This document shows, in pieces, positions 1 to 14,710 of a stretch of 36,337 nucleotides of DNA. Origin of the DNA: a virus. The notes below the pieces were generated by a model, which worked only from the letters and a program-made list of their open reading frames with translations, made no database searches and had not been told where the DNA came from. The stretch is taken from positions 1 to 36,337 of IMG/VR virus record IMGVR_UViG_3300017989_004942. One strand, given 5' to 3'. Numbering within the stretch: the first letter of the stretch is position 1; each line of letters begins with the position of its first letter. Made by a program: the position numbers and the translations under genes.

Positions 1-665
1 ACCAGGTCGCCCGTGCTCGGGTCCACGTACCAGCCGTAGAAGCCGCCGTTGAGCGCGACCAGCAGGCTGATCGCGTCGGCGACGCTCGTGTTGTCCACGC
101 TGAACTCGCCGATGACGCTGTCCAGCGCGAGCCAGTCAGCCGCCGTGTAGCCGGCCACGTCGGCGGCGGTCAGGTAGGTGTCCGTCACGCAGCAGGCGTC
201 GCCGTGGTGGCCGGCGATGTCCGACCCGCCGCCGGGGATGCCGAGGGCGTGCTCGAGGATGTCGATGACGATCTCGCCGGCCTCCCACTTGCCGCCGTCG
301 TTGCCGGGGCTGTCCTCGCCTCCCTGGCCCTCCTCGCAGGTATGGCCCCGCCGGTTCCAGACGTAGAAGCCGCGCCCGTTGACGCGGACCGGCTCGTTCT
401 CCAGCCGGAAGCGCTTGCCGCGGGCGATCCACGTGACGCCCTCGTCGCTGACGCCGCCGGGTGCGACCTCGGTCAGGTTGCCCCGGAAGCGCGTGACGCC
501 GCCGACGTCCACGCGGACGGTGTCCCAGAGGTGGAGCGTGGTGGGCGCGTCGTGCCGGCAGGGGCAGAAGATCACCGCCTCGAAGGGCTGCACGTACGAG
601 GCCGTGATGCTGCGCACCTGGCAGGTGCTGGTCAGCACGTCGTCGATGTAGAGCTCGACAGCCAC
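1..665 (-). CDS. Baseplate hub-like tail protein (partial, C-terminus off the window)
   Basis: The reading frame starts at a GTG whose first base directly follows the upstream gene's TGA (TGAGTG) and stays open to the window edge, giving about 221 residues. The start of the product reads MAVELYIDDVL. It continues with a beta-rich segment containing RGNLTEV and then LENEPVRVNGRGFYVW. This pattern resembles the first domain of phage hub proteins of the late-control-D / gp27 type, which join the tail tube to the baseplate or tip. The gene lies downstream of the tape measure gene, where distal-tail proteins are normally encoded. The family call rests on position and fold-like pattern, not a diagnostic motif. 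Another distal-tail or tail-tip protein is possible. Confidence 0.45.
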   Translation of the reverse strand, partial: MAVELYIDDVLTSTCQVRSITASYVQPFEAVIFCPCRHDAPTTLHLWDTVRVDVGGVTRFRGNLTEVAPGGVSDEGVTWIARGKRFRLENEPVRVNGRGFYVWNRRGHTCEEGQGGEDSPGNDGGKWEAGEIVIDILEHALGIPGGGSDIAGHHGDACCVTDTYLTAADVAGYTAADWLALDSVIGEFSVDNTSVADAISLLVALNGGFYGWYVDPSTGDL

Positions 666-1052
666 TCAGCGCCGCTCCCCAACCCAGTCCAGCGGGCGGA
701 TCTCTGTCGGGGCATCGGTCGTCAACTGTCTGTGGGGCGGGGCCGGCGGTGTTGCCGTTGTCCCTCCCCCGTCGTTGCCGTTTGCCGTTGCCGTCTTTGG
801 CGTCGCCGTTACCTCGGCCCCGCCGTTGCCGTCGCCTTCGTGCCCTTCGTGCCCTTCGTGGTGGGCGCCGTTGTTGCCGTTTGCCGTTGCCGTTCCTTCT
901 GCCTTCTGCCTTCTGACTTCTGCCTTCGGGGCGCGCATGCGCGCTCCGCAGAGCACGCAGCGCGGCTCATGGTCTCCCCGCCGGGCCTCGCGTTCGGCGC
1001 TGCAGCTCTCACACACCAGCGTCCTCGTCCCGTCCCAGACCCTCCGCTTCAT
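666..1052 (-). CDS. Small zinc-ribbon protein carrying inserted low-complexity repeats
   Basis: 128 residues. The ATG at 1052 has a good GGGAGG site 7 bases upstream and overlaps the stop of the preceding gene (ATGA). A longer frame begins at 1091 but has no such site. The N-terminal third has two CxxC pairs (CESC and CVLC), a probable zinc ribbon. The remainder is low complexity: an RRQKAEG segment, a run of HEG triplets, and Thr/Ala/Asn/Gly-rich sequence. These repeats match simple repeats found in many GC-rich bacterial chromosomes and look like captured repeat DNA translated in frame. The function is unknown. The neighbours are distal-tail genes. Confidence 0.5.
   Translation of the reverse strand: MKRRVWDGTRTLVCESCSAEREARRGDHEPRCVLCGARMRAPKAEVRRQKAEGTATANGNNGAHHEGHEGHEGDGNGGAEVTATPKTATANGNDGGGTTATPPAPPHRQLTTDAPTEIRPLDWVGERR
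833..861. repeat. TTCGTG(CCC) triplet-type simple repeat, in frame inside the zinc-ribbon gene
   Basis: Two tandem 9-base units (TTCGTGCCC) and a partial third; the opposite strand encodes HEGHEGHEG in the zinc-ribbon gene. A related copy lies at 1273-1303. From memory, repeats of this type are dispersed in several GC-rich bacterial genomes, so they look chromosomal in origin. The open frame shows that the insertion was tolerated. Confidence 0.7.
895..927. repeat. CTTCTGC/CTTCTGA simple repeat, in frame inside the zinc-ribbon gene
   Basis: Tandem near-identical 7-base units (CCTTCTG / ACTTCTG) are translated from the minus strand as EVRRQKAEG-like sequence. This second repeat class lies only about 35 bp from the HEG repeat in the same gene. 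Confidence 0.65.
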
Positions 1053-1237
1053 CCCGCACCTCCCTTCCACTGTTTGAGCCGTCGTTTGCACTCGGCGCAG
1101 TTGTCCGGGCTGTCATCGTTCCCCTGCTCGGGGTGGGCATTGCCGAGGCAGCCCCACTCGCCACACAACGAGCGCCCGGCGATCATGTAGTGCGCCTTCC
1201 TCGCGTTGGCCGGCCACCACCATCCGTCCTTGCTCAT
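1049..1237 (-). CDS. Small cysteine-rich protein (probable zinc-binding)
   Basis: 62 residues. The ATG at 1237 has an excellent AAAGGAGGT site 6 bases upstream; an alternative GTG at 1240 lies too close to it. The stop overlaps the next gene's ATG (ATGA), so the two are translationally coupled. The pattern SLCGEWGC followed about 20 residues later by CAECKRRLK recalls small phage and actinobacterial proteins of the form HYI-LCG...CKRCLK, which are probably single-zinc folds of unknown role. I cannot assign a function. Confidence 0.6.
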   Translation of the reverse strand: MSKDGWWWPANARKAHYMIAGRSLCGEWGCLGNAHPEQGNDDSPDNCAECKRRLKQWKGGAG

Positions 1238-1272: not shown

Positions 1273-1303
1273 CCTTCGTGATCTTCGTGTCCTTCGTGGT
1301 TCA
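1273..1303. repeat. TTCGTG-type simple repeat abutting a tail gene stop
   Basis: Three units (CCTTCGTGAT, CTTCGTGTC, CTTCGTGGT) sit exactly at the stop of the tail gene ending at 1301. The stop TGA is part of the first repeat triplets (ATGAACCACGAAGG on the minus strand). It fills the only gap between coding genes in this stretch. An open frame of 63 codons over it (minus strand, 1113-1304) overlaps the real cysteine-rich gene and is not credible. Confidence 0.65.
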
Positions 1304-2149
1304 TGCCCCCGTTGTCGTCGCCGTCTCTGTGGTGGTCGTGATTTGCTCGACGCCGCCGAGCTCCACGTCCTGCACGAACTCCGCCTCGAAGTCGGTCGCG
1401 CGGCTGTCCGTGTGTGTCGGCCGCAAGCTCTCCAGCAGGACGCGGTCGAACACGTTCCCGTTCGCCCGGAGCGTCACCCAGCGCGGCCCGATGCTGCGCG
1501 CCAGCGCCTCCAGGTAGTCGGCCAGGTTCTGGCCCGTCACGAGCGCGTGCCCCGTGACGACGAACCGGATCACCGCGCCCGCCGCCGGCCCGCGCGCACG
1601 CGACCCGCGCGCCCTGGGGATCTCGCGCAGCGGGAACCGTCGCGACATCTCGATCCGCATCCCGACCGGGAAGGTCCCGAGCTGCACGCCCCCGGCCCGG
1701 TAGTCCTGCAACGTGTCCGTGCCGGGATAGGTCGCCGGCGCGGCGGGGATGGCGCCCCAGGCCGGCTCGGCGGACTTCGACGGGCTCTGCCAGTCGGTGC
1801 GCATCTCGACGAACCGGAACGCCTGGATCTCCGCGACCGCGCCGATGCAGACCGAGTCGCCGAAGACCGCGCGGTTGCCCAGGTTGTCCTCGACGCCGAG
1901 GTCGCCGGGGTCGCTGGTGGCCAGGGAGTGGAAGTGCTCGTAGGCGTAGCGTTCGGCGTCGCCGAGGTTGGCGCGCAGGCGCTGGCCCGTGACGGTCAGT
2001 TCGAGCACGCCGCCGCCCGAGTCGAGGACGGTCGCCGGCGCGGAGTGCGGCTCCAGGAACACGTTGCGGCGCAGAGCCGTGGGCGTCGCGAAGGCGTGCG
2101 CGCCGAGCTCGACGTGTATCGTCCCGTCGTTGAAATACCCGCCCGCCAC
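1301..2149 (-). CDS. Distal tail protein of unknown family with Thr-rich C-terminal tail
   Basis: 282 residues. The GTG at 2149 is preferred because GGAGG lies 5 bases upstream; the GTG at 2155 overlaps that site. The upstream tape measure gene stops 12 bases away. The body is mixed alpha/beta with no motif I recognise. The protein ends in a short Thr-rich tail (TTTTETATTTGA), a feature shared with the tail tube, decoration and capsid proteins of the same operon. A position just after the tape measure suggests a distal-tail or tail-tip component. A host-type simple repeat begins at its stop codon. Confidence 0.5.
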   Translation of the reverse strand: MAGGYFNDGTIHVELGAHAFATPTALRRNVFLEPHSAPATVLDSGGGVLELTVTGQRLRANLGDAERYAYEHFHSLATSDPGDLGVEDNLGNRAVFGDSVCIGAVAEIQAFRFVEMRTDWQSPSKSAEPAWGAIPAAPATYPGTDTLQDYRAGGVQLGTFPVGMRIEMSRRFPLREIPRARGSRARGPAAGAVIRFVVTGHALVTGQNLADYLEALARSIGPRWVTLRANGNVFDRVLLESLRPTHTDSRATDFEAEFVQDVELGGVEQITTTTETATTTGA

Positions 2150-2161
2150 GTGCACCTCCGG

Positions 2162-4249
2162 TCAGTAGGGCTGCACGGAGAGACGCTTCACGCGCTGTCT
2201 CAGATCCATGACTCCGCGCACATAGTCCTGGTGCTTGCGTTTCAGCGTGTCGGTATCGTCGACAAGCGCATGCACCACGGTCAGGAAGCTGGCGGTGTTC
2301 CTGTCCTGCAGTTCGATGAAGGCGTCGATGTTCTCGCGCACCTTCTCGAGGTCGGCTGTTGCCTCCGCAAGGGCCCGCCCTTCTGGGGTCATGGGCACGG
2401 AATCCCAGGCGCCGCGGGTGGCCGCGGCGCCCTCGCGCATATCTTCGGCGTACCCGGCCAGCCTGCCGCCGCCCTCTTCCATCGCGCGGCGCGTCCGCTC
2501 GTCCACGGCCTCCTTTGCCGCCTCTTTCTCAGCCGGCATTTTGATCCGCTGGGCGCCAGCCACGAGTTCCTGGAGAAACGATAGTACTTGCTGGAGTTGC
2601 TTCTCGACGAGCGGGATGCGTTGTTGCTCAATCCTCCACTCCCGGTCTTTGTGTGGTAGGTCCTCCCACCTGGCGGGAGCCCCCGGGAACCCCCATTTCA
2701 AATAGCGAGATCGCTCCTTCTCGTAGTCTTCTTGCGCCATCCGTTCATGGCGGCCCATCAGCTCCGCGTTGATCGCGTTCGCAACGTTCGCCACAGCACC
2801 AAGCAGCCGGTTCTGCAGGTCCTGCCCCACGTCGATCCACAGCTTCTGGAAGAGCCCGCCCACCTGCGTGATCGCCATGTCGAAGGCGACCACAATCCAG
2901 TTGGTCAGGGGACCCAGCCCCCACTCCCCGCCCTCTTTGACGGCGAAGAGGTCGGTGATGCCTCCCAGGGCGATCTTCGCCCGCTCGACCGCCCCTTCCC
3001 AGGCGACCGACATCCTCTCGCCGAGGCGTCGCTTGAAGTCGGCCCACTTCCCGGCGTCAGTCATGATGTCGATGGCGTCACGAATGGCGGAGTCAGCCGC
3101 CTCGGCCGCCTTGTCACTCCACTCGATGACCTTCTGCCAGGCTGGGGACTCCGCGAGGGCCAGCAGTGACTCGTTGATGTCGATCAGCCCGTCGTTAAAG
3201 CGCTCGTACCAGGGCTGGGTGAGGCTGATGCGCAGGTCCTGGACTGCCCCCACAAACGTGGACCAGGGGCCAGACCCGACGGTGGCCGCCGCCTTCGCCA
3301 TCCCGCCGAATCGCCGTTCGACCGCCCGCATCATGTAGGCCGTCATCTCTTCCGGCGTGCCGGTGAATGCCCCGGCCTTCGTGAACGTCGCGCCCTCGCG
3401 CTGGAGGTCCCGGATGCTGATCAGTAGGCGCTGGATGCCTCTCCGCGCGCCGGGCGCCCCGGTCACGACGCGCTGGAACGTCTCGATCACCTGGTCGAGC
3501 GGCTTCTTCGCCCCGGCCGCCCAGTCCGCCAGCAGGGTGAGGTATTTGCGCGGGTCCCTGCCGACTGCCCCCACCCCGAGCGACGCCTGGATCATCTCGA
3601 ACGGCGTGAACGGCGTGACGAGCGAGAGCTTGCGCGCGAACCGCTCGACCTCCTTCGCCATGCCCTCGCCGAGCAGCTTGCGGAGCACCTGGCGCAGGTC
3701 GGCGAGCTGCATGTTCTCGCGGATGCCCTTGATAAACTGCCAGGCGAACACGGCGCCCGTGCCTGCCGCCACCATGCCGGCGATCTTCGTAATCCGGCCC
3801 AGGCCGCGGGCGACGACACCCACCACGCGCTCGAAAACGGTTGCGATGCCCTGGATCAGCTTGCCGAAGGCGTTGATGATGCCGCCGACGACGTTCGCGG
3901 CGACCCCGACGATGCCCTGCAGCACGTTCGCCGCCGTGCCCACAACGCCCGACAGCACGCCCCCGATGCCGGGGATCAGCCGCGTGAAGGCCCCGATGAT
4001 GCGCACGGGCAGAAGGGTCAGCGCGGTGGCCCCCTGCAACACGTCGGAGAAGATGCCCCCGACGCCGCTCGGCCTGGCCGCCAGCCGCTGCGCCAGGCGC
4101 CCGCCGACGCCGCCGCCGAACATCCGTGCGAAGCCGCCGCCGGCGCCGGCGCTCCAGCCCGAGCGCAACCGGGCCTGGAACCGCCGGATGTCGCGCATGG
4201 CGAGGTCGCGGAACTTCGCGACGACGCTGAACTCGAACTGCTTCGCCAT
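2162..4249 (-). CDS. Tape measure protein
   Basis: 695 residues, the longest structural gene in the window. The tape measure spans the tail tube lumen, sets tail length and helps DNA cross the host membrane. The N-terminal 20-190 region is rich in Gly/Ala/Val/Ile hydrophobic stretches interleaved with Ile/Val-rich helices (for example GIVGVAANVVGGIINAF). The central part contains a RRFGGMAKAAA...GPWSTFVGAVQDLR pattern typical of tape measure proteins just before the region that contacts the distal tail. The C-terminal third is helical and charged. It lies directly downstream of the overlapping G/T chaperone genes, the canonical location. At 695 residues it implies a tail of moderate length, roughly 100 nm by the usual 1.5 angstrom per residue rule. 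Confidence 0.9.
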   Translation of the reverse strand: MAKQFEFSVVAKFRDLAMRDIRRFQARLRSGWSAGAGGGFARMFGGGVGGRLAQRLAARPSGVGGIFSDVLQGATALTLLPVRIIGAFTRLIPGIGGVLSGVVGTAANVLQGIVGVAANVVGGIINAFGKLIQGIATVFERVVGVVARGLGRITKIAGMVAAGTGAVFAWQFIKGIRENMQLADLRQVLRKLLGEGMAKEVERFARKLSLVTPFTPFEMIQASLGVGAVGRDPRKYLTLLADWAAGAKKPLDQVIETFQRVVTGAPGARRGIQRLLISIRDLQREGATFTKAGAFTGTPEEMTAYMMRAVERRFGGMAKAAATVGSGPWSTFVGAVQDLRISLTQPWYERFNDGLIDINESLLALAESPAWQKVIEWSDKAAEAADSAIRDAIDIMTDAGKWADFKRRLGERMSVAWEGAVERAKIALGGITDLFAVKEGGEWGLGPLTNWIVVAFDMAITQVGGLFQKLWIDVGQDLQNRLLGAVANVANAINAELMGRHERMAQEDYEKERSRYLKWGFPGAPARWEDLPHKDREWRIEQQRIPLVEKQLQQVLSFLQELVAGAQRIKMPAEKEAAKEAVDERTRRAMEEGGGRLAGYAEDMREGAAATRGAWDSVPMTPEGRALAEATADLEKVRENIDAFIELQDRNTASFLTVVHALVDDTDTLKRKHQDYVRGVMDLRQRVKRLSVQPY

Positions 4250-4256
4250 CGTCTCG

Positions 4257-4577
4257 TCAGTCCTCCGCGTCGGTCAGGGTGCCGAGGCCCTCGATGATGC
4301 GGGCGAGGGCGTCCGCCCAGGAGTAGGGTTCGCCGATGAACATGCGGGCCAGCATTACCGCCCTCCAGGCGTCGTCCGGGACCGGCTGCCCGTGCGAGGC
4401 CCTCCAGAAGAGGTCGAGCAGGTCGCTGCCGCCGGTCAGGCCCTGCCGGACCTCGTGAGCAATTGGCCCGCCTGGACTCCGATGCCGATCAGCACGCGGC
4501 CAAGCAGGACGACGGGCCAGAAACGCGCCGCCTCGATGCGCCCTGATACGGGGGCGTCGCTCACCGGCACGAAGCAC
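4257..4577 (-). CDS. Tail assembly chaperone, T-frame (probably made as a G-T frameshift product)
   Basis: 106 codons that overlap the 3' end of the G-like gene by 142 bases and stop 7 bases before the tape measure start. Relative to the G frame this frame is offset by -1, the offset used by lambda-type phages to make a G-T fusion by programmed frameshifting. The first part of the frame (before about 4436) is Arg/Pro-rich and looks unselected. The part after the G stop (QGLTGGSDLLDLFWRAS onward) looks like real protein, as expected if translation enters by frameshift. I found no canonical X-XXY-YYZ heptamer in the overlap; the CCCCC run near 4550 and TTTC near 4520 are the nearest homopolymers. 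Independent initiation at a GTG is the alternative. Confidence 0.6.
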   Translation of the reverse strand: MLRAGERRPRIRAHRGGAFLARRPAWPRADRHRSPGGPIAHEVRQGLTGGSDLLDLFWRASHGQPVPDDAWRAVMLARMFIGEPYSWADALARIIEGLGTLTDAED

Positions 4578-4999
4578 TCCCGGCCTGTGGCCTCGGTGTA
4601 CTCGGGCAGGTGGAGCTCCGTCACACAGCAGGCCAGGAGGTCCGCCACGAGCACCCAGGCGCCCTCCAGGGCATCATCGGAGAAGGCGGCGGCCACCACG
4701 TCGGCCGCTGCCTCGACGCCCTCAGCGGCCGCCAGGCGCTTTCTGAGCCCGTCCATGCGGGCCAGGGCGGAGGCGACACGCCCGACCATCTCCGAGCTGA
4801 CGACCGTGATCAGGGCGAAGTCCTGGCCGCCGCACCAGACGCGGGCCTGCCAGAACTTCACGGGCTCGATCCACTCGACCGCCTCGAACTGCTCCCGCAG
4901 AAAGGCCAGGAGCGAGCGGCCGTCCTCCTGCTTGGCGTCGGCGGCCGGGGATTTGTCGGCCGGCTCTGGGGCCGGCTGGTTCGGCCTCTTCTTGCCCAT
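4436..4999 (-). CDS. Tail assembly chaperone, G-like
   Basis: 187 residues. The ATG at 4999 has GGAGGT 7 bases upstream; a GTG at 5008 overlaps that site. The N-terminus is a charged linker, followed by a mainly helical alpha/beta body. It sits between the tail tube and tape measure genes, and its 3' end overlaps a second frame at -1, which together are the hallmark of lambda gpG/gpT-type chaperones. Such proteins coat the tape measure during tail assembly and are not in the mature particle. The family is very divergent in sequence, so the call rests on position and overlap. Confidence 0.65.
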   Translation of the reverse strand: MGKKRPNQPAPEPADKSPAADAKQEDGRSLLAFLREQFEAVEWIEPVKFWQARVWCGGQDFALITVVSSEMVGRVASALARMDGLRKRLAAAEGVEAAADVVAAAFSDDALEGAWVLVADLLACCVTELHLPEYTEATGRECFVPVSDAPVSGRIEAARFWPVVLLGRVLIGIGVQAGQLLTRSGRA

Positions 5000-5040
5000 C
5001 GTCTGCACCTCCTCCGGTCAGGGTTGCTGTTGCCTCCCGG

Positions 5041-6045
5041 TCAGGCTCCCGTTGTTGTCGCGGCGGCCGTCGTTGTCGGGGCGGCCGTCGTGGTGATCGG
5101 CGCCAGGGTCGTTGTCGCCGGGCCGAGGTCCACGCCCCAGATGATGTCGTCCCCGCTCGGGCCGGCCAGGGCCTCGAACCGGGGCGACTGCTTCGCGATC
5201 TGGTCGGGCGTCCCGTCCTCGGCGGACTCCTCGATGACCATGCGCGGGAGCTGGATCTGCGCGTAGTGGCCGTCCGGGTGGTGCAGCCGGACGTCCAGGG
5301 AGAAGTAGCCGCCGTCCCGGATGGCCTCGTTGTGCAGGTCGTCGTTGTTGAGCTCCTCGGACTCGAAGCTGATAGCCCGCTGCTGCGCGAGCAGGTGCGC
5401 GTGCGTGCCGAGCGTTATCCCGGTCGTCCGGCGCTTCGGCCCGGCCAGGACGTTGTTCTCGACGGTGATCGTGCCCGTCTCCAGGTCCGCGATCAGGTGG
5501 CCGTTCCGCCGGAACTCGGCCGAGGCAAACATGAACGGCACCGCGCTCACTGCCGAGTAGTCGAAGTCGCCGGCGACGAGCGCGTCGTTCTCCTCCTCCA
5601 GCTTCGCGCGGAGCGTGTGCGTCAGGCGGATGTCGCCTGCCCCCGTGCCATCGAACGCGAGAGTCATTCGCTCGACGACCGCGCCGAGGTAGCGCCTCGG
5701 GTCGGCGGGCGTGTAGTGGTCGAGGCAGTGGCTGTAGACGTCCTCATCGTCGTCCCGGTCGAGACACATGCGGAGCAGGTGCTCGGTCAGCTCCGGCCAG
5801 AGCAGCGTCAGCATGTCGCCCGTGACTTCGAGCTGGTGATGGACGGCCACGTGCCGGCGGAAGTCCCCGCCGTAGTTTGTGTTGGGCCAGTAGCGCGGCG
5901 AGGTCGCCTTGAGCGTGAACCCGTTCTCGATGATCGGGCACGAAAACCAAGTCGGGACCGCCGGGCACTCGCCGAACGCCGTCTCGCGGCAGAACCTCAC
6001 GTGCCGATGGGCGCCGAGGTGAACGCTTCCTTCTGCTCCGGGCAT
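5041..6045 (-). CDS. Major tail tube protein with Thr-rich C-terminal tail
   Basis: 334 residues; ATG at 6045 with GGAGG 8 bases upstream. The N-terminal region (RETAFGE..., then PIIENGFTLKA and YGGDF) matches the pattern of tail tube proteins in siphophages with Mu-like heads, which begin with a short strand, a conserved RET-FG motif and the beta-sandwich that stacks into hexameric rings. The gene lies between the tail terminator and the chaperones, as expected for the tube gene. No sheath gene precedes it, so the tail should be non-contractile. The last 30 residues are Thr/Ala/Pro only (TTTLAPITTTAAPTTT and onward), an extension that would project from the tube surface in many copies. Confidence 0.75.
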   Translation of the reverse strand: MPGAEGSVHLGAHRHVRFCRETAFGECPAVPTWFSCPIIENGFTLKATSPRYWPNTNYGGDFRRHVAVHHQLEVTGDMLTLLWPELTEHLLRMCLDRDDDEDVYSHCLDHYTPADPRRYLGAVVERMTLAFDGTGAGDIRLTHTLRAKLEEENDALVAGDFDYSAVSAVPFMFASAEFRRNGHLIADLETGTITVENNVLAGPKRRTTGITLGTHAHLLAQQRAISFESEELNNDDLHNEAIRDGGYFSLDVRLHHPDGHYAQIQLPRMVIEESAEDGTPDQIAKQSPRFEALAGPSGDDIIWGVDLGPATTTLAPITTTAAPTTTAAATTTGA

Positions 6046-6068
6046 CGTTCTCTCCTCCAGTCAGAGCG

Positions 6069-6539
6069 TCAGCTTGTCAGCGGGCGCCGCAGCCGCCAGT
6101 GCAGCCGCACCCGCGTGGTCGTCAGCCAGATCAGGCGCGCGCCCTCCTTGCTCGGGCGCGCCACCCACGTGCTGCCGGTCCAGTCGATCTTGTAGAGCCC
6201 GTCCCCGCTGAGGTCGAGCATGTCCCCCCTGGCGGCGATCAGCACGTCGTAGAACGCCGCCAGGAGCGTCTCCATCGTCGAGGCGTCCTGGCCTTCCGTG
6301 GCAAAGTCCACCTCGATGATCTGCGGGATCTCGACGCCGTAGTTCGTGAGCTGGGCGAGTTCCGCCTCGGCGGGCGAGATCCAGCACATCGGGCAGCGCG
6401 CGGGGTCGATCACCACGCGCTCCCAGAGGCCGGACTCGAACGTGCGCCAACCGTCCGGCGTGATCGCTCCGTCGATGGTGACGTCCGCTTTAAGCGCCGC
6501 GATCAGCGCCTCGCGTCCGTCTGTGAGGAAGCCGGCCAT
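6069..6539 (-). CDS. Tail terminator-like protein
   Basis: 156 residues. The ATG at 6539 follows the stop of the gpG-like gene by 3 bases. Small alpha/beta protein with an N-terminal helix (REALIAALKADV) and later strands ending in Arg/Trp-rich sequence. It is in the slot between the virion morphogenesis gene and the tail tube gene. In long-tailed phages that slot normally holds the terminator, a hexameric ring that caps the tube and docks it on the head. There is no specific motif, so the role is inferred from order and size. Confidence 0.55.
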   Translation of the reverse strand: MAGFLTDGREALIAALKADVTIDGAITPDGWRTFESGLWERVVIDPARCPMCWISPAEAELAQLTNYGVEIPQIIEVDFATEGQDASTMETLLAAFYDVLIAARGDMLDLSGDGLYKIDWTGSTWVARPSKEGARLIWLTTTRVRLHWRLRRPLTS

Positions 6540-6542
6540 GCG

Positions 6543-7139
6543 TCAGCGCATCCTCCGGTCCGTCTCCTTGTTGAGGTGCTCGACCATCCGATCACCCAGG
6601 TAGTCGTAGTCCTCCTGCTCGACGACCAGCCAGGGGTGCTCCTCGATCTCCACCTCCGTGAGCAGGGCGAACAGCGGCTTGAAGTCGCCGCCCGCCATCT
6701 CGCCCAGGACGCCGATGCTGTGTCCGCTCGGGCCGCCGCCCTTGCTGGGGCGGAAGTCCAGGTCGCCGAAGTCAAACGCTCCCTTGCCGTAGCTCTCGTC
6801 GGCGATGGGCACCGTCAGGTGAGGGCCCCCCGGCCGCATATGTATTACGCCGCCGAAGTGCTGGATCAGGCCGTACACGAGCGGCGTGCCCATCTCGGCC
6901 GAGTCGCCGCCGTCGCCGACCTCGTAGGTCAGCGAGTTGCGCAGCGCGGCGGACTGGACGGCGGGCGGCTCGCCCGCGGCGGACGCCTCATGCCCGCCCG
7001 TGCGCGGGAAGCGCATGACCCACTTGCGGACCATGTGCGCCCCGAAGTCGCGGGCCACCGGCGTCATGTCCGCGATGGCCTCAGCGAGGCCTTTCAGGCC
7101 CCGCTCCACCTCGCGCATGTCCACGTCCAGTGCGATCAC
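6543..7139 (-). CDS. Virion morphogenesis protein (Mu gpG / tail completion type)
   Basis: 198 residues starting at a GTG that overlaps the upstream TGA (GTGA). The N-terminus is helical (VERGLKGLAEAIADM). The middle has the family pattern of SGAALRNSL-like sequence (AALRNSLTYEV), then GLIQHFGGVI and a PHLTVPI strand, as in PF05069-type and HK97 gp10-type proteins. These join the head connector to the tail. A 30-residue Gly-rich insertion follows (around PSKGGGPSGHS). The position after the gp36-like gene copies the Mu order. Confidence 0.7.
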   Translation of the reverse strand: MIALDVDMREVERGLKGLAEAIADMTPVARDFGAHMVRKWVMRFPRTGGHEASAAGEPPAVQSAALRNSLTYEVGDGGDSAEMGTPLVYGLIQHFGGVIHMRPGGPHLTVPIADESYGKGAFDFGDLDFRPSKGGGPSGHSIGVLGEMAGGDFKPLFALLTEVEIEEHPWLVVEQEDYDYLGDRMVEHLNKETDRRMR

Positions 7140-7558
7140 AGGTCCTTGTCCCTCCCGAACTCGCGGTCGTCCACCTGGTAGCGCACGCCGGGCGCGCTGG
7201 CCGAGGCCGTAGGTTTCGGCACGAGGCCGATCTCGATCTCGCCGGCCGCAACGGCCTTGAGCCAGTCAAGCGCCTCCTTACAGGCGAGGCGCTCCTCCTC
7301 CGTCATCGACTGCCGCCCCCGCAGCAGCCGGCACCAGGCCAGCGTGATGGCGCAGTCCCGCAGGGACGGCGGAATCGGCGCGGGCACAGGCACGACGAAC
7401 TGCTTCTGGAGGTAGCTGTCCATCAGGCCGCAGGCGTCCGTGATGGCGCGCGTAATGACGTCCGCGTCGGCAGTGCCGTCCTTGTTGTGGTCGGCGTAGG
7501 CGACGACGCTCTGCTCGGAGTATCGCTCCTCGATGTTGGCCTGGGTGCAATAGGCCAC
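7136..7558 (-). CDS. Mu gp36-like head-tail connector (DUF1320)
   Basis: 140 residues. The GTG at 7558 is preferred: AGGAGGG lies 7 bases upstream and the product starts VAYCTQANIEERY, the conserved start of the family. A longer frame to 7636 would translate a strong hairpin and has no such site. The following pattern ITRAITDACGLMDSYL, a Pro-rich turn, then a helix with LRDCAITLAWCRLLRGR and AVAAGEIEIG is typical of DUF1320 (Mu gp36), a helical connector that binds below the portal. Translationally coupled to the gpG-like gene. Confidence 0.8.
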   Translation of the reverse strand: MAYCTQANIEERYSEQSVVAYADHNKDGTADADVITRAITDACGLMDSYLQKQFVVPVPAPIPPSLRDCAITLAWCRLLRGRQSMTEEERLACKEALDWLKAVAAGEIEIGLVPKPTASASAPGVRYQVDDREFGRDKDL

Positions 7559-7593
7559 GCCTGAGCCCTCCTGCAACGGTTCGGTTCGCGTGC

Positions 7594-7627
7594 GGGGCCG
7601 GGGCCCGCCGGCGGCGGGCCCGGTCCC
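7594..7627 (-). other. Strong GC hairpin downstream of the capsid gene
   Basis: GGGGCCGGGGCCCGCC pairs with GGCGGGCCCGGTCCC across a 3-base loop, with one bulged base and one wobble. It lies between the capsid and gp36-like genes. No T-tract follows, so it looks like an RNA-stability or processing element more than a classical terminator. Confidence 0.5.
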
Positions 7628-7661
7628 GTCAGTCACGCGCCTTCACTCACTCCCGGTCGTG

Positions 7662-8588
7662 TCACGCAGCGGCGGTGGTCGCCGAAGCGGCCCGGCTCGA
7701 GTCGCTCCACTGGCCCAGCCAGGGCGCCAGGATGGCGATGCCGAAGCGTCGCCGTCCCTTGTAGCGGAGGACCTCCCGGTTGAAGACCGAGTCGTCGGTC
7801 TCGCTGTCCTGGGCGAAGAAGTCGGGGCCGCTGCGGTTGGTGATCGCACACGGCTTGACCTCGTCGCTCAGGTCGAAGACGCCCCACTCCTCGGCGTGGG
7901 TGCCGATGAGCTGGCTCCACTTGACGACCTGCACCTCGTTGTGGTGGATGTTCGAGTCGCCGCCGCCGACCAGCTCGCGGTGGACGATTCGCCGGGCGCG
8001 GTTCAGGTTCGCCGGCCCGACCACGAGGTGCGTCGGACTGAGTTCCAGGACCTGGCCGTCCGGGCCGATCCTCTCCATCAGGTGCTGGCAGGCCGTCTCG
8101 AAGCTCGCCGGCGAGAGCGCCAGATCTTCGAGGTTGTCCCACGCCTGCCCACCCACCCACTGGTGGCTGTTGGACCAGACGTTCGCCCCGTCCACCCAGG
8201 CGGTGCTGATGCCGTTGATGAACGCCTGGGGCACCTGCCGGTAGGGGTAGGTGGCGGCACGCTTGCCCAGCGCCTTCGCCACGAGCGTGTACATCGCGAG
8301 CCGGTCGTCCTCGACGTGAGTGATCGGGATCTCCAGCCCGCGCGCGAACGTCTCGTTCGCGATCTCCTGCATCCACTGGCCGAGGTTCGTGTAGGACAGC
8401 TCGTCCTCGAACTTCTCCAGGTCACCCAGGAGTGCTGCCGTGGGCAGGTACTCCTCGCTGGTGCCGCTCGGGATTTCCGTCACGAACGCCGCCACGTCCT
8501 CGGGTATGGGGGCGTCACGAACGGCCGCCCGGAACTCGCCGCGCAGGTTCTGAAAGAGCGCGGCCATGTTGCCCTGTGTGAGCTCCAT
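7662..8588 (-). CDS. Major capsid protein (Mu gpT type)
   Basis: 308 residues. HK97-fold major head subunit; hundreds of copies form the icosahedral shell. The sequence follows the gpT family pattern: N-terminal helix (MAALFQNLRGEFRAAV), VTEIPSGTSEEYLPTAALLGDLEKFEDEL, then IANETFARGLEIPITHVEDD, and a C-terminal domain with GPANLNRARRIVHREL and AILAPWLGQW. Length is like Mu gpT (about 300). The order protease/scaffold, decoration, capsid fits the Mu block apart from the decoration genes placed between. The tail is a short Ser/Ala/Thr stretch (SSRAASATTAAA), the mildest example of the extensions seen on its neighbours. Confidence 0.9.
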   Translation of the reverse strand: MELTQGNMAALFQNLRGEFRAAVRDAPIPEDVAAFVTEIPSGTSEEYLPTAALLGDLEKFEDELSYTNLGQWMQEIANETFARGLEIPITHVEDDRLAMYTLVAKALGKRAATYPYRQVPQAFINGISTAWVDGANVWSNSHQWVGGQAWDNLEDLALSPASFETACQHLMERIGPDGQVLELSPTHLVVGPANLNRARRIVHRELVGGGDSNIHHNEVQVVKWSQLIGTHAEEWGVFDLSDEVKPCAITNRSGPDFFAQDSETDDSVFNREVLRYKGRRRFGIAILAPWLGQWSDSSRAASATTAAA

Positions 8589-8622
8589 CTCGGTGCTCCT
8601 CGTTTGAGTGCGTTGTGGACGG

Positions 8623-8635
8623 GCCCCGCCGGGGC
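8623..8635 (-). other. Short hairpin between decoration and capsid genes
   Basis: GCCCCG-C-CGGGGC, a perfect 6-bp stem. It is one of three GC hairpins that separate the capsid-region genes. It could tune relative mRNA abundance of highly expressed proteins; no T-tract follows. Confidence 0.35.
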
Positions 8636-8654
8636 AAGGCCCGCCCGCCTATCG

Positions 8655-9206
8655 TCAAGCCTGGCCGGCTGTCGTGGTGGCGGCAACTGTCGTTGCGGCT
8701 ACCGTCGTTGTCGTCGGCGTGTAGTCCCACGGGTCGCCGCTGGCCTGGATCTCGACCTCGTCCGTGGAGAAGTCCGCCTCCGCGTCGTAGGCGAGGGCCG
8801 CCGTGGGCAGCTTCGTCACGTGCCCGCACCGGACGTCGTTCGTGACCGCGCCCGAGTAAACCTCGACCGTCTGGTCGTCCACTACGTAAACCTTGCAGAA
8901 CAGCATGTCCTGGCTGGGCGTTCTGTTCAGGACGTAGCGGAAGCGGCCCTTTGTGCGCACGACGACGTAGACGTCGCCGTCGTCGCCCTCCGAGTTATCG
9001 TAGTTGCCGCCGGGATTCTGCGGGTCCTCGATGGCCACGCCGGCGAAGTGGTAGCCGGCAGTGTCGGCCGCCGGGACGGCGTAGCCGTCCGCGTTCGCAC
9101 AGACCATGCCGCCGACGAAGATCTCCGCTTCGGCCGCCATCGGGATCCGCAACGTGTCCGTCGACTCCTGGTACCACGTGTTGCGGTCCGCGCTGAGTGC
9201 GCTCAT
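8655..9206 (-). CDS. Decoration/cement-like head protein, short-tailed paralog
   Basis: 183 residues starting at ATG 9206. About three quarters of residues match the protein of the next gene upstream (for example DRNTWYQES, AEIFVGGMVC, IEDPQNPGGNYDNS, DVYVVVRTKGR, LPTAxLAYDAEADFSTDEVE), so they are a tandem duplication. The beta-rich form with an AEIFVGGMVCxNADGYAVPA segment resembles DUF2190-type capsid cement proteins, small trimeric proteins that stabilise the shell. The C-terminal tail is short (TPTTTTVAATTVAATTTAGQA). A position between scaffold and capsid genes supports a head role. The main divergence from the paralog is at the tail and in the 110-135 region. Confidence 0.65.
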   Translation of the reverse strand: MSALSADRNTWYQESTDTLRIPMAAEAEIFVGGMVCANADGYAVPAADTAGYHFAGVAIEDPQNPGGNYDNSEGDDGDVYVVVRTKGRFRYVLNRTPSQDMLFCKVYVVDDQTVEVYSGAVTNDVRCGHVTKLPTAALAYDAEADFSTDEVEIQASGDPWDYTPTTTTVAATTVAATTTAGQA

Positions 9207-9228
9207 CTGTTCGCTCCCTCTGGGGTAG

Positions 9229-9259
9229 GGCCGGGGGCCCGCTCAGGCGGGCCCCGGCC
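9229..9259 (-). other. Strong GC hairpin between the two decoration genes
   Basis: GGCCGGGGGCCCGC pairs with GGCGGGCCCCGGCC around a loop of about 4 bases with one bulge. Lies in the 59-bp gap between the paralogous decoration genes. No T-tract. It is similar in style to the hairpins at 7594 and 8623. Confidence 0.5.
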
Positions 9260-9265
9260 GGATCG

Positions 9266-10009
9266 TCAGCCTCCCTGCGTTGTGGTCGTTGTGGCCGCCT
9301 CGGTGGTCGCCGCCTCGGTGGTCGCCGCCTCAGTGGTGGCCGCCTCGGTGGTCGCCGCCGGCGTGGTCGTCGGCGGTGCCGTGGTCGTCCTGGCAGGCGT
9401 TGTCGGCGCAGGAGTTGTCGCCGCTGGCGTTGTCGTCCTGGCAGGCGTTGTCGGCGCAGGAGTTGTCGCCGCCTCAGTGGTCGGCGCCGCCGTTGTCGGC
9501 GCTGCCGTTGTCGTCGTGGGCGCGTAGTCATCCACGCCGCCGGAGAACTCAATCTCGACCTCGTCCGTCGAGAAGTCCGCCTCGGCGTCGTAGGCCAGGG
9601 TCGCCGTGGGCAGCTTCGTCACGAAGCCGCACTGGACGTCGTAGGTCAGCGCGGCGGCGTTGACCTCGACCGTCTGGTCGTCCACGCAGTAGGCCTTCGC
9701 CAGGAGCATGTCCTGCGAGGGCGTCCTGTTCAGGGCGTAGCGGGCCCGGCCCTTCGTGCGCACGACGACGTAGACGTCGCCGTCGTCGCCGCCCGAGTTG
9801 TCGTAGTTCCCGCCGGGATTCTGCGGATCCTCAATGGCCATGCCGGCGAAGATGTAGCCCTCCGCGTCATCTGCAGGGACGGCGTAGCCGGCCGCGTCCC
9901 GACAGACCATGCCACCGACGAAGATCTCCGCGTCAGCCGCCATCGGGGCCCGGAGCGTGTCCACCGACTCCTGGTACCACGTGTTTCTGTCTGTGCTGAG
10001 TGCGGTCAT
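9266..10009 (-). CDS. Decoration/cement-like head protein with long mucin-like Thr/Ala/Pro tail
   Basis: 247 residues; ATG at 10009 with AGGAGGT 5 bases upstream. Residues 1 to about 168 are the globular decoration-like domain shared with the downstream paralog. The last 80 or so residues contain almost only Thr, Ala, Pro, Glu and a few Arg. They include repeated EAATT pentads and a 16-residue repeat (TTPAPTTPARTTT-like) encoded by a 48-bp direct repeat. Such Thr/Pro-rich extensions are flexible and are often O-glycosylated or used for surface adhesion in other systems; here that is inference. If the protein decorates every capsomer, the head would be covered by hundreds of tails. Confidence 0.65.
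   Translation of the reverse strand: MTALSTDRNTWYQESVDTLRAPMAADAEIFVGGMVCRDAAGYAVPADDAEGYIFAGMAIEDPQNPGGNYDNSGGDDGDVYVVVRTKGRARYALNRTPSQDMLLAKAYCVDDQTVEVNAAALTYDVQCGFVTKLPTATLAYDAEADFSTDEVEIEFSGGVDDYAPTTTTAAPTTAAPTTEAATTPAPTTPARTTTPAATTPAPTTPARTTTAPPTTTPAATTEAATTEAATTEAATTEAATTTTTQGG
9292..9520. repeat. Tandem repeats encoding the Thr/Ala/Pro tail
   Basis: Two layers are visible. From about 9292 to 9358 a 15-bp unit (GTGGTCGCCGCCTCG) recurs about four times, encoding EAATT on the minus strand. From 9384 a 42-base segment recurs 48 bp later (9384-9425 and 9432-9473) with one mismatch. All units are multiples of three, so gain or loss of units would change tail length without breaking the frame. 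Confidence 0.75.
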
Positions 10010-10023
10010 GGGGACCTCCTTCC

Positions 10024-10644
10024 TCAGCTCGCATTGCGGCCGGCGAGCATGACCTCATCAGAGATGCCGAGCAGGCGCGCCACGGCGCGTTCCTCGTCCG
10101 TGATCCCCTGCGCTGGCGTCCGCTGGCCGCCGACGTGCTGGGCGTTGGTGACCACGGGCAGGCCCTCGATGGCCTGGCGCGCGGCGTCCATGTCGCCCTC
10201 GGCGATCCGCTTCCACCAGCCCTTCTGAGCCGGCGTGATCTTGCCGGCCTCAATGGCGTTGGCGATGAGCTGATCGACCTCGCCCCCGTGGCGGTCCTCG
10301 TGGAGCTCGCCGATGGCCGAGAGGATGCCCGCCTCAGAGGCATCCTCGGCCAGACCCAGCGCGGACCGGACGGCGTCCAGCCCGGCGCCCGGCGCCTTCA
10401 GCCGGATGATGGCGGCGTTGACCGAGGTCAGCTCCGCGTCCGGCTCGACGCCCAGGGCATTCGCAACCGACTCGGGCAGGGCCGGCACTGCGGCCAGCTC
10501 AGCCTCGAGTTCTGCAACCCGTTGCGCGTTGGCCACCAGGGCCTGCGCGACTTCCTTGTCCTCCGTGCCCGAAAGCCCGAGCATGGAGGCTGCCTGCTCG
10601 GGCTCGACCTCGAGCGCGTTCGCGATCTGCGTCAGGAGATCCAT
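10024..10644 (-). CDS. Scaffolding protein from internal in-frame start (Mu gpZ-like)
   Basis: 206 residues that are the C-terminal half of the protease frame. The internal ATG at 10644 (product start MDLLTQIANALEVE) has a strong GGGAGG site 7 bases upstream, which is not expected by chance inside a coding frame. The preceding residues are a Gly/Glu linker (PEEGGGS). In phage Mu, gpZ is produced from an in-frame start in gene I, and lambda Nu3 arises the same way from gene C. The predicted scaffold is helical and would be degraded by the protease. Confidence 0.65.
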   Translation of the reverse strand: MDLLTQIANALEVEPEQAASMLGLSGTEDKEVAQALVANAQRVAELEAELAAVPALPESVANALGVEPDAELTSVNAAIIRLKAPGAGLDAVRSALGLAEDASEAGILSAIGELHEDRHGGEVDQLIANAIEAGKITPAQKGWWKRIAEGDMDAARQAIEGLPVVTNAQHVGGQRTPAQGITDEERAVARLLGISDEVMLAGRNAS

Positions 10645-11181
10645 GCTCCCGCCTCCCTCTTCTGGTGTGTCGCCGGGATCCGTCCCGGCGTCCTGTTCGT
10701 TCAAGCTCGCCAGCTCCAGCATGCGCGGCGTGTTAGTCAGCGCCACGCTGTGTATCCGCATCGGGATGATCTCGCCCGTCACTGGGTCCGGGTGGTTCCA
10801 GAGGATGACCGGGCTCGGGTAGCGGAACTGCCGCGCAGCCACGCTGTTCATGCCCTCGGTCGTCCACTGCACCAAGCCCCAGAGTTCCGTCCCGTCCGCG
10901 CGCAGGTCCATCTGCCCGATCCAGCCCGCCGCCGGCGCCCGCTCCCCGCGCTGCGCGGCGAATACGCTCGCGTGGTTCCAGTCGAGCGGCACGTCCTTGC
11001 TGTTCGGGACGTAGCGCGCCTCGAAGTAGGCCTTCGCGCCGGCCAGGCGGTCTTGCGTCACTACCTGCCTGCCCCCCTTCGGGCCGCCCGCCCAGACGCC
11101 CGTCCGGGCGAGCATGATCCAGTCAGGCACAGCGGCCGGTATCTCAGCCGGCGCCGCGTTCTGCGTGAGCGTCGGGTCCAT
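10024..11181 (-). CDS. Head maturation protease-scaffold (Mu gpI type)
   Basis: 385 residues. The ATG at 11181 overlaps the portal-fusion stop (TGATG). Mu I-family proteases cut the scaffold and capsid precursor inside the prohead. The N-terminal half fits the family: RYVPNSKDVPLDWNHAS, with the conserved His of the DWNH motif, then GWIGQMDLRADG, then PSPVILWNHPDPVTGEI and the conserved IHSVALTNTPRM. The C-terminal half is helical and charged and acts as scaffold; it also has its own internal start (separate entry). The length and two-part build match Mu gpI. It follows the portal-F gene as in Mu. Confidence 0.88.
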   Translation of the reverse strand: MDPTLTQNAAPAEIPAAVPDWIMLARTGVWAGGPKGGRQVVTQDRLAGAKAYFEARYVPNSKDVPLDWNHASVFAAQRGERAPAAGWIGQMDLRADGTELWGLVQWTTEGMNSVAARQFRYPSPVILWNHPDPVTGEIIPMRIHSVALTNTPRMLELASLNEQDAGTDPGDTPEEGGGSMDLLTQIANALEVEPEQAASMLGLSGTEDKEVAQALVANAQRVAELEAELAAVPALPESVANALGVEPDAELTSVNAAIIRLKAPGAGLDAVRSALGLAEDASEAGILSAIGELHEDRHGGEVDQLIANAIEAGKITPAQKGWWKRIAEGDMDAARQAIEGLPVVTNAQHVGGQRTPAQGITDEERAVARLLGISDEVMLAGRNAS

Positions 11182-13163
11182 CAGACCAGGCCCTCCACCA
11201 GAGGCATGGTGCGCAGCACTTCCAGGTCGGCGCGGCCGGCCTCCGTCGCCGGCTGCCAGCCCTCCGACTCCAGTCCGTAGGCGTCCCGCCGGTCGAACTG
11301 CCACTGGGGGTTCGCAGGCGCTTTAAGCGCGGCGACATTCGCGCTGCGCTCGATCACCGCCCGCATGTCGCGCGCGGCATCGCGGATCTGCGCCGCCTCG
11401 AGGGGCATCCCCTGGAGGACCAGGGCCGCCTGGTAGCGCGCGGCCTCGTCTATCTCGTCCTCGACCTCCAGCCCCTCCGCGTCCATCTCCGTCCGGCTCA
11501 CAGTGACCAGGGTGCATCGGCAGTTATAGTCCCAGGGCGGCATGTAGCTCGCCCAGAACGGGTCGTCGAGAGGCTTGACGATCCCGTCCAGGGCGGCGTG
11601 CTCGGCCCGCACGCGCTCGTCTCCCGCCGTCAGGTACTGGCCGTAGGGCCGCTCGGCGATGCCGCGCTGCCCCTTGATCCAGCGGTCCGCCCCGTAGGCC
11701 GAGAACAGGTTCTGGCGATAGACCAGCCGCGCCTGCGCGGCGGGGATCTGATTGTCGCCGGGCGTCTGCCCGCCCGGCACGGCGATGCCCAGCGCCTCCA
11801 GGTGTGTCAGGGCCGCGTTGGCCGTGGCGCCGGTGCGGTATGCCTCGGTCAGCTCGACGGCGGCCTGTGCGATGCGTTCCTGGTCGAGCCCCGTCACATA
11901 CCAGGCCCGCTGCTTGCCGGCGGGCCCGAGCCGCTCCCACGCCTCGTCCGTGGCGACGCGCCGCTCGCCGAGCCACCTGAGCCCGTCCTCGGGCACCGGC
12001 CCCTCGGTCGTGACGTCGGCCTGGTTCGGCACGAGCGCCGGCTGCGCGACGAAGGCCGGGCGCAGCGCGTTTTCGCTCTGGCCTTCCTGCTCGCCTTCCG
12101 CCGTGCCCTGGCCGGTCAGCGCGCGCACCTGGAATGGCACCACGATGGCCTCGCCCGCGACGGGCGCGCGGTAGCCGAAGCGCTCCCGCACCTCGTCCAT
12201 CGCGATCTCGACGCCGGCGGTGACCAGGTTGCCGAGGATCTCCGACTCCTGGAGCATGTCCGAGGGCCGCTCGACCAGGAAGTCCCATCGGGGGAGCGGC
12301 GCCGACTCGCCCAGGTTCAGCCGCACGATGGGCCGCAGGAGCTGATGAGTCAGCGTCTCTCCGAGCGCTTTCGCGTCGGCCTCCAGCAGGTCCATCCGCA
12401 CGATGTTGTGGACCTGGCCGAGCGCATAGGAGCCGCCGCCCTCGCCGCCACTCGTGAGCGTCTGCCCGAGGATGGAGAGCGTCAGTTCGCGGTCCGCCAG
12501 CTCCAGGATGCGCTCGTAGATCTGGCCTTCACCGTTCGCGACCTGCAGCAGCTCGATTTCGTTCGAGGAGCGGACCACCGCCGCGTAGTCGTGGCCCAGC
12601 GCGCGGACTGCCGCCTTGAGCTGCGTCGCCTCCGCCGAATTCCACGCCACGTCGTCCTGCAGCTTGCCGATCCGCGCCGGCATGCCGTAGACCTCGGCGA
12701 AGCTCATCCAGTCCTTCCACCCGAAGTGCCGCACGATGAACGCCCGCACGCACGCCCTCAACAGCGGCTGCCGCCAGGCGTAGCCGCTCTGCCCCCGCGC
12801 GCGGTGGACGATCCAGTTTGTGGGGTTCAGCTCGACGTCGTCCCCGTAGCCCTCGCCGCGCAGCAGGAGCGTCGTCCCATCCTCGGCCACCGTGAACCAA
12901 CGCTGCGGGACGTATTCGAGCCGCACCGGCTGCCAGTCGTTCTTGCTCGTCTGCCAGTGGATCTGGACTGGCGAGAAGCCCTTCCCGATGGCGTCGAGCA
13001 GGTCGAAGATCGCGTCCTGCACGTCCGGGATCGTCGCCACTATCTCGCGGGCGTACTCGGCCGCCGCCATCGCCAGGCGGCTCTCGTCCGCCGGGTCGAT
13101 CTCCCACTCGGCGTGCGCCACGCCGGCGCTGCACGTCCGCCAGCAGCTTCTCGATCTCTTCAC
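11181..13163 (-). CDS. Fused portal (Mu gp29/DUF935) and minor head protein (Mu F/gp30); N-terminus frameshifted and short
   Basis: 660 codons in the main frame. The portal forms the dodecameric gate for DNA; the F-type part is a minor head component. Residues 20 to about 350 follow DUF935 (AEWEIDP, LLDAIGKGFSPVQIHW, VPQRWF, WKDWMSFAEVYGMPARIG, LGQTLTSG). Residues about 440-600 carry the Mu F pattern (RLVYRQNLFSAY, RAEHAALDGIV, LDDPFWASYMPPW, NCRC). In Mu these are two genes. The main frame can only start at a GTG at 13163, giving an odd Arg/Cys-rich first 14 residues. A well-placed GTG at 13173 (AGGAGG 7 bases upstream) encodes phage-like LTREEIEKLLADVQRR but in another frame, so a 1-base indel near 13120-13125 is likely. 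Even after repair, roughly 50-60 residues of the usual portal N-terminus seem missing. Confidence 0.85.
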   Translation of the reverse strand: MKRSRSCWRTCSAGVAHAEWEIDPADESRLAMAAAEYAREIVATIPDVQDAIFDLLDAIGKGFSPVQIHWQTSKNDWQPVRLEYVPQRWFTVAEDGTTLLLRGEGYGDDVELNPTNWIVHRARGQSGYAWRQPLLRACVRAFIVRHFGWKDWMSFAEVYGMPARIGKLQDDVAWNSAEATQLKAAVRALGHDYAAVVRSSNEIELLQVANGEGQIYERILELADRELTLSILGQTLTSGGEGGGSYALGQVHNIVRMDLLEADAKALGETLTHQLLRPIVRLNLGESAPLPRWDFLVERPSDMLQESEILGNLVTAGVEIAMDEVRERFGYRAPVAGEAIVVPFQVRALTGQGTAEGEQEGQSENALRPAFVAQPALVPNQADVTTEGPVPEDGLRWLGERRVATDEAWERLGPAGKQRAWYVTGLDQERIAQAAVELTEAYRTGATANAALTHLEALGIAVPGGQTPGDNQIPAAQARLVYRQNLFSAYGADRWIKGQRGIAERPYGQYLTAGDERVRAEHAALDGIVKPLDDPFWASYMPPWDYNCRCTLVTVSRTEMDAEGLEVEDEIDEAARYQAALVLQGMPLEAAQIRDAARDMRAVIERSANVAALKAPANPQWQFDRRDAYGLESEGWQPATEAGRADLEVLRTMPLVEGLV

Positions 13164-13459
13164 GCGTCAACACTGCCGTGCCTCCTGTCGCATTCCTCGT
13201 GTGTGACGAAGCTCTGCCTGTCGTGGCGGAGGTCGCCCCGGATGGACCGCAGCTCCTCCAGGATCAGGTCCACGCGGGTGCTCAGGACGGGCACGCTGTC
13301 AACGGCGCGGTCGCCCTTGCTCAGGCGCGCCTCGATGCACTCCAGGTGGTCCTCGACGCGCTGTCGCCAGCGCCCCAGTCGGAACGCCACCACCCAGCCG
13401 CCGATGAACCCGCCGAACAGCGCCGACGCCGCCGATATCGCGGTCTGAAACCAGATCAC
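13160..13459 (-). CDS. Small membrane protein with coiled-coil tail (DUF2730-like)
   Basis: 99 residues from a GTG overlapping the upstream TGA (GTGA). Residues 5-27 form one transmembrane helix rich in small residues (AASALFGGFIGGWVVAF), followed by a positively charged segment and a predicted coiled coil (VEDHLECIEARL, VDLILEELRSIRGDL). Mu-like phages carry a similar DUF2730 protein upstream of the terminase genes; its role is unknown, perhaps in lysis timing or assembly at the membrane. A holin is possible but there is only one helix and no endolysin nearby. Confidence 0.55.
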   Translation of the reverse strand: MIWFQTAISAASALFGGFIGGWVVAFRLGRWRQRVEDHLECIEARLSKGDRAVDSVPVLSTRVDLILEELRSIRGDLRHDRQSFVTHEECDRRHGSVDA

Positions 13460-14631: not shown

Positions 14632-14710
14632 CGGGGCGTGGCTCAGTCTGGTTTAGAGCGCTGCGTTCGGGACGCAGAGGTCGGCGGTTCGAATCCGCCC
14701 GCCCCGACCA
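14632..14710 (+). tRNA. tRNA-Pro (anticodon CGG), CCA encoded
   Basis: Full cloverleaf: acceptor CGGGGCG/CGCCCCG, D stem GCTC/GAGC with 11-base loop, anticodon stem CTGCG/CGCAG with loop TTCGGGA (anticodon CGG), 5-base variable loop, T stem GGCGG/CCGCC with loop TTCGAAT, discriminator A and encoded CCA. The 3' 58 bases are also the antisense end of the serine recombinase gene, which suggests the tRNA 3' half was used as an integration target and rebuilt by the element. A phage-borne tRNA is the alternative. Confidence 0.95.

Follow-up and report, generated by a model that had tools for sequence, protein, structure and literature searches.

Virion proteins that are sugar modified by the phage's own enzymes have been described: glycosylation of the capsid protein by phage glycosyltransferases is reported for Che8 and other mycobacteriophages (Freeman 2023, as cited in PMC11256854 and PMC12894461). 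Phage-encoded glycosyltransferases are shared with the locus treated here, where a glycan shield on the capsid and sugar-modified virion proteins, the other points of likeness, are predicted. A second point of reference is provided by Casadabanvirus and other Mu-like siphoviruses (JBD30, MP29, and D3112-like phages), with which our locus shares the gene order Portal_Mu, protease, phrog_1731 decoration protein, gpT capsid, gp36, tube, and tape measure. The proteins of those phages, however, lack the Thr-rich C-terminal tails described below, the glycosyltransferase domain PF00535 is found in none of 30 such outgroup records (JBD30 included), and only our locus was seen to have a large serine recombinase near its structural genes. 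Third, CAZy family GT27 (human GalNAc-T1, -T2, -T4, and -T12 and Toxoplasma GalNAc-T3) shares with the phage enzyme reported here a GT-A domain, a DxH motif, a WG-E loop, and a distal His, together with nearby Thr/Pro/Ala-rich mucin-like acceptor sequence, the acceptor role in the phage being a predicted one. Finally, the tandem repeats of eukaryotic mucins (MUC2 and MUC5AC) are Thr/Pro/Ala-rich disordered acceptor tracts, to which the phage tails are likened by analogy only, with no claim of homology.

The window, by which we mean the whole 36,337-base virus record analyzed, carries a structural operon that fills its left third on the minus strand (Table 1). Its genes encode a Portal_Mu-MuF fusion, a Mu-like protease, two phrog_1731 decoration proteins, a gpT capsid, gp36, and the neck, tube, tape measure, and distal proteins, so that Portal_Mu, MuF, protease, gpT, and gp36 of a Mu-like structural module are all present. 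A Pfam scan of the 30 larger open reading frames gave no match to a MuA-type (DDE) transposase and placed a serine recombinase at 14653 to 16344. The host is probably a planctomycete: the window carries a host-like TrkH (31343 to 32842) whose closest resemblance (62%) is to Phycisphaerales proteins, and the operon has relatives in planctomycete metagenome-assembled genomes (MAGs). The phage family is uncultivated, and at least some of its members come from Planctomycetota bacteria; all sequences behind this analysis are metagenomic or MAG fragments.

Table 1. Structural operon of the window, with the C-terminal tails of its products
Feature	Coordinates	Strand	Tail and remarks
Tail-tip protein gene (~859 aa), 5' part	1..665	-	Runs on past the window edge; L248:473-3052 in twin contig
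Distal-tail protein	1301..2155	-	ITTTTETATTTGA; tailed too in L250, L263, L264
Tape measure protein	2162..4249	-	No tail
Tail tube protein (Phage_tube_2)	5041..6045	-	ATTTLAPITTTAAPTTTAAATTTGA; position conserved in L172, L174, L179
Neck/tail completion protein	6543..7139	-	No tail
gp36-like head-tail adaptor	7136..7636	-	No tail
Major capsid protein (Mu gpT family)	7662..8588	-	Weak tail, SSRAASATTAAA
Decoration protein 2	8655..9206	-	PTTTTVAATTVAATTTAGQA; predicted disordered
Decoration protein 1 (phrog_1731), 247 aa	9266..10009	-	~84-aa Thr/Ala/Pro(/Glu) tail
Tail-coding part of decoration protein 1	9266..9521	-	From alignment with tail-less and short-tailed homologs
Mu-like protease/scaffold	10024..11304	-	No tail
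Portal-MuF fusion	11181..13163	-	No tail; portal N terminus missing
Tail peptide sequence, example			ATTTLAPITTTAAPTTT

Translation and tail composition bear out the initial annotation in that both decoration proteins, the tube, and the distal protein end in sequence made mostly of Thr, Ala, and Pro: the ~84-residue tail of decoration protein 1 holds 38 Thr, and these three residues make up 80% of the final 20 amino acids of decoration protein 2 and 90% of those of the tube. The distal tail exists, although the gene end first given (2149) was slightly off, and the capsid tail is indeed weak, with only two Thr in SSRAASATTAAA. As had also been noted, the globular domains that precede the tails (gpT capsid, phrog_1731 decoration, and Phage_tube_2) are mutually unrelated; the two decoration proteins are paralogs with an overall identity of 77%. 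A phmmer search returned no PDB matches to the decoration, tube, or distal proteins, and a match of the distal protein to the DUF6716 "glycosyltransferase" was rejected as lying below the cutoff. Where the tails project was addressed by structure prediction for decoration protein 2: residues 166 to 176 and 180 to 183 are of low confidence and probably disordered, and the predicted fold weakly resembles the capsid decoration or stabilizing proteins of T1, FCWL1, TW1, and HFTV1 and the base of the phi29 head fiber, which agrees with outward exposure of the tail. One might suspect that the tails are assembly or sequencing artifacts or frameshift products, given that the data are metagenomic assemblies only and that the window contains a deletion near the portal gene. 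However, a twin contig (3300029258_005854, hereafter L248), which may share its sample or a related one with the window, is 100% identical to it across 17,588 bases, tails included, and homologous tails are present in many contigs and in three planctomycete MAG prophages (L168, L236, and L237); for practical purposes, this explanation is refuted.

Single-protein queries with the capsid, tube, and portal recovered nothing beyond the twin from the viral contigs, nor did the alignment of the two decoration paralogs; when genomes were scanned with the decoration alignment, nothing matched. The clade was found with a portal alignment (the window plus prophage L168), which led to ten close viral contigs (L172 to L181) and to two more MAG prophages (L236 and L237); contigs L263 to L265, reached through the enzyme described below, were added. 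All 18 distinct decoration proteins of the clade end in a Thr run, ranging from PTTTTAGG to ~84 residues; they are only about 45 to 55% identical and yet carry the tail at one place throughout, whereas the wider Mu-like homologs lack it and stop where the final strand of their globular domain does. By comparison, Thr-run windows occupy 0.9% of interior positions in the same protein families. The tube has a clear tail in L172, L174, L179, and L263 as well as in the window, a short one in L176 and L264, and none in the other members (automated flags in L173, from a wrong frame, and L181, from an internal LTTTLE, were dropped as artifacts). A TTT-[LF]-A core stands at the equivalent position in four of these tubes (window, L172, L174, and L179), so that among them the tail was inherited. 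Besides the distal tails (Table 1), true capsid tails occur in L172 (EGDTTTTAA) and L174 (EGETTTTAGG), and the tip protein of L252 ends in GGTTTTTTLVP. Among the clade's C termini, gp36 (0/17), protease (0/17), portal-MuF (0/16), and neck (0/4) are never tailed, which yields the rule that only outward-facing proteins bear tails.

Aligned in this way with those of related prophages, the C termini show the tails to be old and conserved within the Mu-like clade. The idea of an added module spread between genes therefore needs qualification: unrelated phages (L266, L268, and L269; see below) did acquire the same type of tail on different proteins, but the decoration and tube tails share their position among relatives and so, for the most part, were passed down where they stand, with changes in length, rather than copied recently from gene to gene. 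A more skeptical view, in which the tails are functionless low-complexity expansions, generated by replication slippage at the 3' ends of genes in GC-rich DNA and tolerated at free C termini, can point to the great variability in tail length among relatives and between the two paralogs, as well as to the near-repeats, (ATTEA)n, in decoration protein 1. We nevertheless consider it very improbable. The 38 Thr codons of this longest tail are mixed, with all four in use (14 ACG, 11 ACC, 9 ACA, and 4 ACT); it is therefore no simple microsatellite, and the mixture speaks for selection at the amino acid level. Moreover, slippage would have to account for tails at one place in all of these diverged decoration proteins, for the tail-free gp36, protease, and portal C termini of the same genomes, and for tails at 36 to 59% GC (L266, L268, and L269). 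Such selection evidently acts on the clade even if the window prophage itself is defective. Set against L168 and further relatives, the window appears to lack the terminase large subunit (gp28) and ~115 amino acids of the portal N terminus (13115 to 13180), through a deletion of ~1.9 kb that the twin has as well; because of this loss, the window copy may be a defective prophage that makes no particles itself, although a GpA-like terminase (29041 to 31323) possibly replaces gp28.

A search of the neighboring DNA for glycosyltransferases, as the initial annotation had proposed, located an enzyme in the same late operon, beyond the window edge. By coordinate arithmetic, the twin contig runs 10.8 kb beyond window position 1, and on the 3' side of the tail-tip gene it encodes an 883-amino-acid glycosyltransferase (L248:3663-6314). 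A double-GT2 gene follows the tip gene in L248, L249, L250, L251, and L252, and wherever a clade contig extends that far, the enzyme gene comes after the tail genes; a glycosyltransferase gene is thus linked to virion genes. PF00535 (Glycos_transf_2) was matched in 6 of 11 clade records, the twin among them, several of the others being fragments too short to reach this part of the locus; since most contigs are fragments, the absence of a tail or of its enzyme partner is uncertain. The enzymes are 822 to 883 amino acids long, with two GT2 domains flanking a middle domain that we read from its sequence, with no Pfam call, as methyltransferase-like, and no clear transmembrane segments stand out. 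In several contigs, the neighboring genes encode further GT2 proteins and methyltransferases, together with a product that is recognized, from its motif only, as alkaline-phosphatase-superfamily-like.

When a profile of five full-length enzymes was compared with the PDB, polypeptide GalNAc-transferases were the best matches (1e-10), and a profile built from the 14 members of the N-domain family matched GalNAc-T2 over the whole domain (E = 8e-27). The phage motifs DAH, WGFSE, and GHLYR align with DSH, WGGEN, and GHVFR of GalNAc-T2, which we take to be the metal motif (DxH), the catalytic loop (WG..E), and the segment with a metal-ligating distal His, and D98, H100, E224, and H248 are invariant across the 14 phage sequences. 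For the AF2 model of the enzyme (pLDDT, 85.2; pTM, 0.86), all 50 of the best PDB fold matches listed by Foldseek were GalNAc-transferases (top, 4.8e-17), so that the GT-A catalytic domain is nearest to this group in both sequence profile and fold. Unlike GT27 members, however, the phage enzyme, which is ~20% identical to them, has no membrane anchor and no C-terminal ricin-type lectin domain (a Pfam scan of the full-length enzymes found GT2 domains only), is fused to the methyltransferase-like and second GT2 domains, and belongs to a bacterial virus, in the cytosol. This degree of identity and the missing lectin domain leave UDP-GalNAc a putative donor and Thr/Ser a putative acceptor; given this status of the donor and the lack of that domain, we do not name the enzyme a GT27 member.

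Independent evidence for the pairing of enzyme and tails came from contigs reached solely by the enzyme N-domain and then read for tails. One of them, an unrelated siphovirus (L266), has Thr/Ser tails on its head closure protein (phrog_25) and on one of two tube paralogs (phrog_158); L268 has them on a 153-amino-acid protein and on a 501-amino-acid protein whose position suggests that it is the capsid; and in L269 (36% GC), a Ser/Thr-tailed protein is directly followed by another small protein and by genes of chaperone size and tape-measure size. The enzyme gene stands directly after the tail genes in L266 and L269. In a scripted count that includes the probably spurious L267, tails were present in 12 of 15 contigs with the glycosyltransferase family versus 1 of 38 with generic GT2 only; in the non-Mu lineages alone, with the L267 match dropped as a probable artifact, the proportions were 3/6 versus 1/38 (P = 0.006). 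The converse fails: of 50 contigs that contain TTTAAPTTTAA at any place, many of them fragments, only 7 match the enzyme family. General Thr tracts are thus no signature, whereas C-terminal tails on virion proteins near the enzyme are. The Thr tract alone was rejected as a marker, since TTTAAPTTTAA, where other viral proteins have it, is for the most part a linker within the chain.

That Thr-rich tracts are widespread without the enzyme and that the tails are disordered in the model would also fit unmodified disordered bristles or weak adhesive fibers, comparable to the Ig-like domains of other tube and head proteins, with the glycosyltransferase altering a host polysaccharide (as a superinfection block) or a tail fiber instead; Ig-like C-terminal additions on tubes are, after all, known (JBD30 annotation). 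We regard this as unlikely, since the enzyme is nearest to protein O-GalNAc-transferases rather than to lipid-linked or polysaccharide glycosyltransferases, has no clear membrane segments, and co-occurs with Thr/Ser-tailed virion proteins in unrelated phages and since the Thr-specific makeup of the tails, with scant Ser or charge, is unlike that of a generic linker.

Of the functions initially suggested for the tails (O-glycosylation platforms, adhesive fibers, or a shield), the first is strongly supported by the conserved polypeptide-GalNAc-transferase-type enzyme in the same late operon. We therefore favor, with a probability of roughly 0.8, the explanation that Thr tails and a phage-encoded enzyme form an O-glycosylation module that gives both head and tail a coat of sugar; the genetic and structural steps are what the data show, and the reaction, the identity of the sugar, the roles of the middle and second glycosyltransferase domains, and the benefit are what we infer. 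The tails of the decoration, tube, and distal proteins, and in relatives those of the capsid and tip as well, would serve as acceptor tracts. The enzyme, made from the same late operon as the tailed proteins, would attach a first sugar to tail Thr residues through its GalNAc-transferase-like GT-A domain, in the cytosol and before or during assembly, and its second GT2 and methyltransferase-like domains might extend or methylate that sugar. The assembled virion would then carry a dense sugar brush over head and tail, with a density set by the length and number of the tails. The gain is probably a shielded or tuned particle surface (against proteases, host or grazer factors, or nonproductive adsorption), adhesion to a matrix being another candidate. 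Counting against glycosylation are the short tails, such as PTTTTAGG, which offer few acceptor sites, and the Thr-rich linkers that are common in viral proteins without the enzyme.

The initial annotation knew of no described phage system of this kind. Virion glycosylation itself is known, capsid glycosylation having been reported for mycobacteriophages (Freeman 2023, as cited in PMC11256854), but the tail-plus-GalNAc-transferase-like form of it appears to be new. None of the C termini read in Che8 (major capsid, major tail, and other structural proteins) has a Thr-rich tail, and the tail-based layout therefore differs; in our clade, several proteins have what seems to be a disordered tail dedicated to the acceptor role. 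A tblastn search with the enzyme gave no match in 50,697 phage records, Che8 included, and the open-access literature, to which our search extended (subscription papers lying outside it), yielded no phage GalNAc-transferase or Thr-tail system. With less assurance than for the clade itself, we lean toward a recurrent "mucin-type" module of phages, in which Thr tails and a GalNAc-transferase-like initiator coat the virion in several unrelated lineages and which is unknown in cultivated phages. If this is true, there are phages that use a polypeptide glycosyltransferase of their own to make a mucin-like glycoprotein coat, by a chemistry best known from animals, and the tail acts as a modular address. 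A Thr tail with a linked GalNAc-transferase-like enzyme would then be a sequence rule by which metagenomes could be screened for glycosylated virions. The system might also supply compact soluble protein O-glycosyltransferases and would offer a concrete model in which to ask what phages gain from sugar coats.

Several further observations concern these contigs. The gpT capsid of the window matches PDB relatives with its C-terminal segments in swapped order; capsids of the clade end in a ...GRRRCAVAILAPWL segment and many Mu-like capsids in ...VVPPSLE...CPWLA, which suggests that the gpT fold exists in two segment orders. A tRNA-Pro (14632 to 14710) overlaps the 3' end of the large serine recombinase gene on the opposite strand, a possible attachment site inside the element rather than at its edge. 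The tube paralogs of L266 lie in tandem (4033 to 4425 and 4438 to 4869), one Thr/Ser tailed and one bare, possibly a way of mixing tailed and bare subunits. The unrelated L269, a viral contig of 103 kb, has further sugar genes (GT2, oxidoreductase-like, and DegT-like) immediately after its tail genes and GalNAc-transferase-like enzyme (L269:13026-18949). The sugar gene cluster of the twin includes tandem proteins with a WDVLLILDACRxD motif and no Pfam match (L248:7516-8346 and 8354-9100; homologs in L249, L250, and L251) that look like members of the alkaline phosphatase/sulfatase superfamily. Lastly, a type of repeat (RRQKAEG.. and HEGHEGHEG/HEEHEEHEE) is common to an intergenic-like open reading frame of the window (666 to 1091) and the twin's glycosyltransferase gene, where it sits in frame within the linker, and the L250 enzyme has different in-frame repeat insertions (GTGPLSPS).
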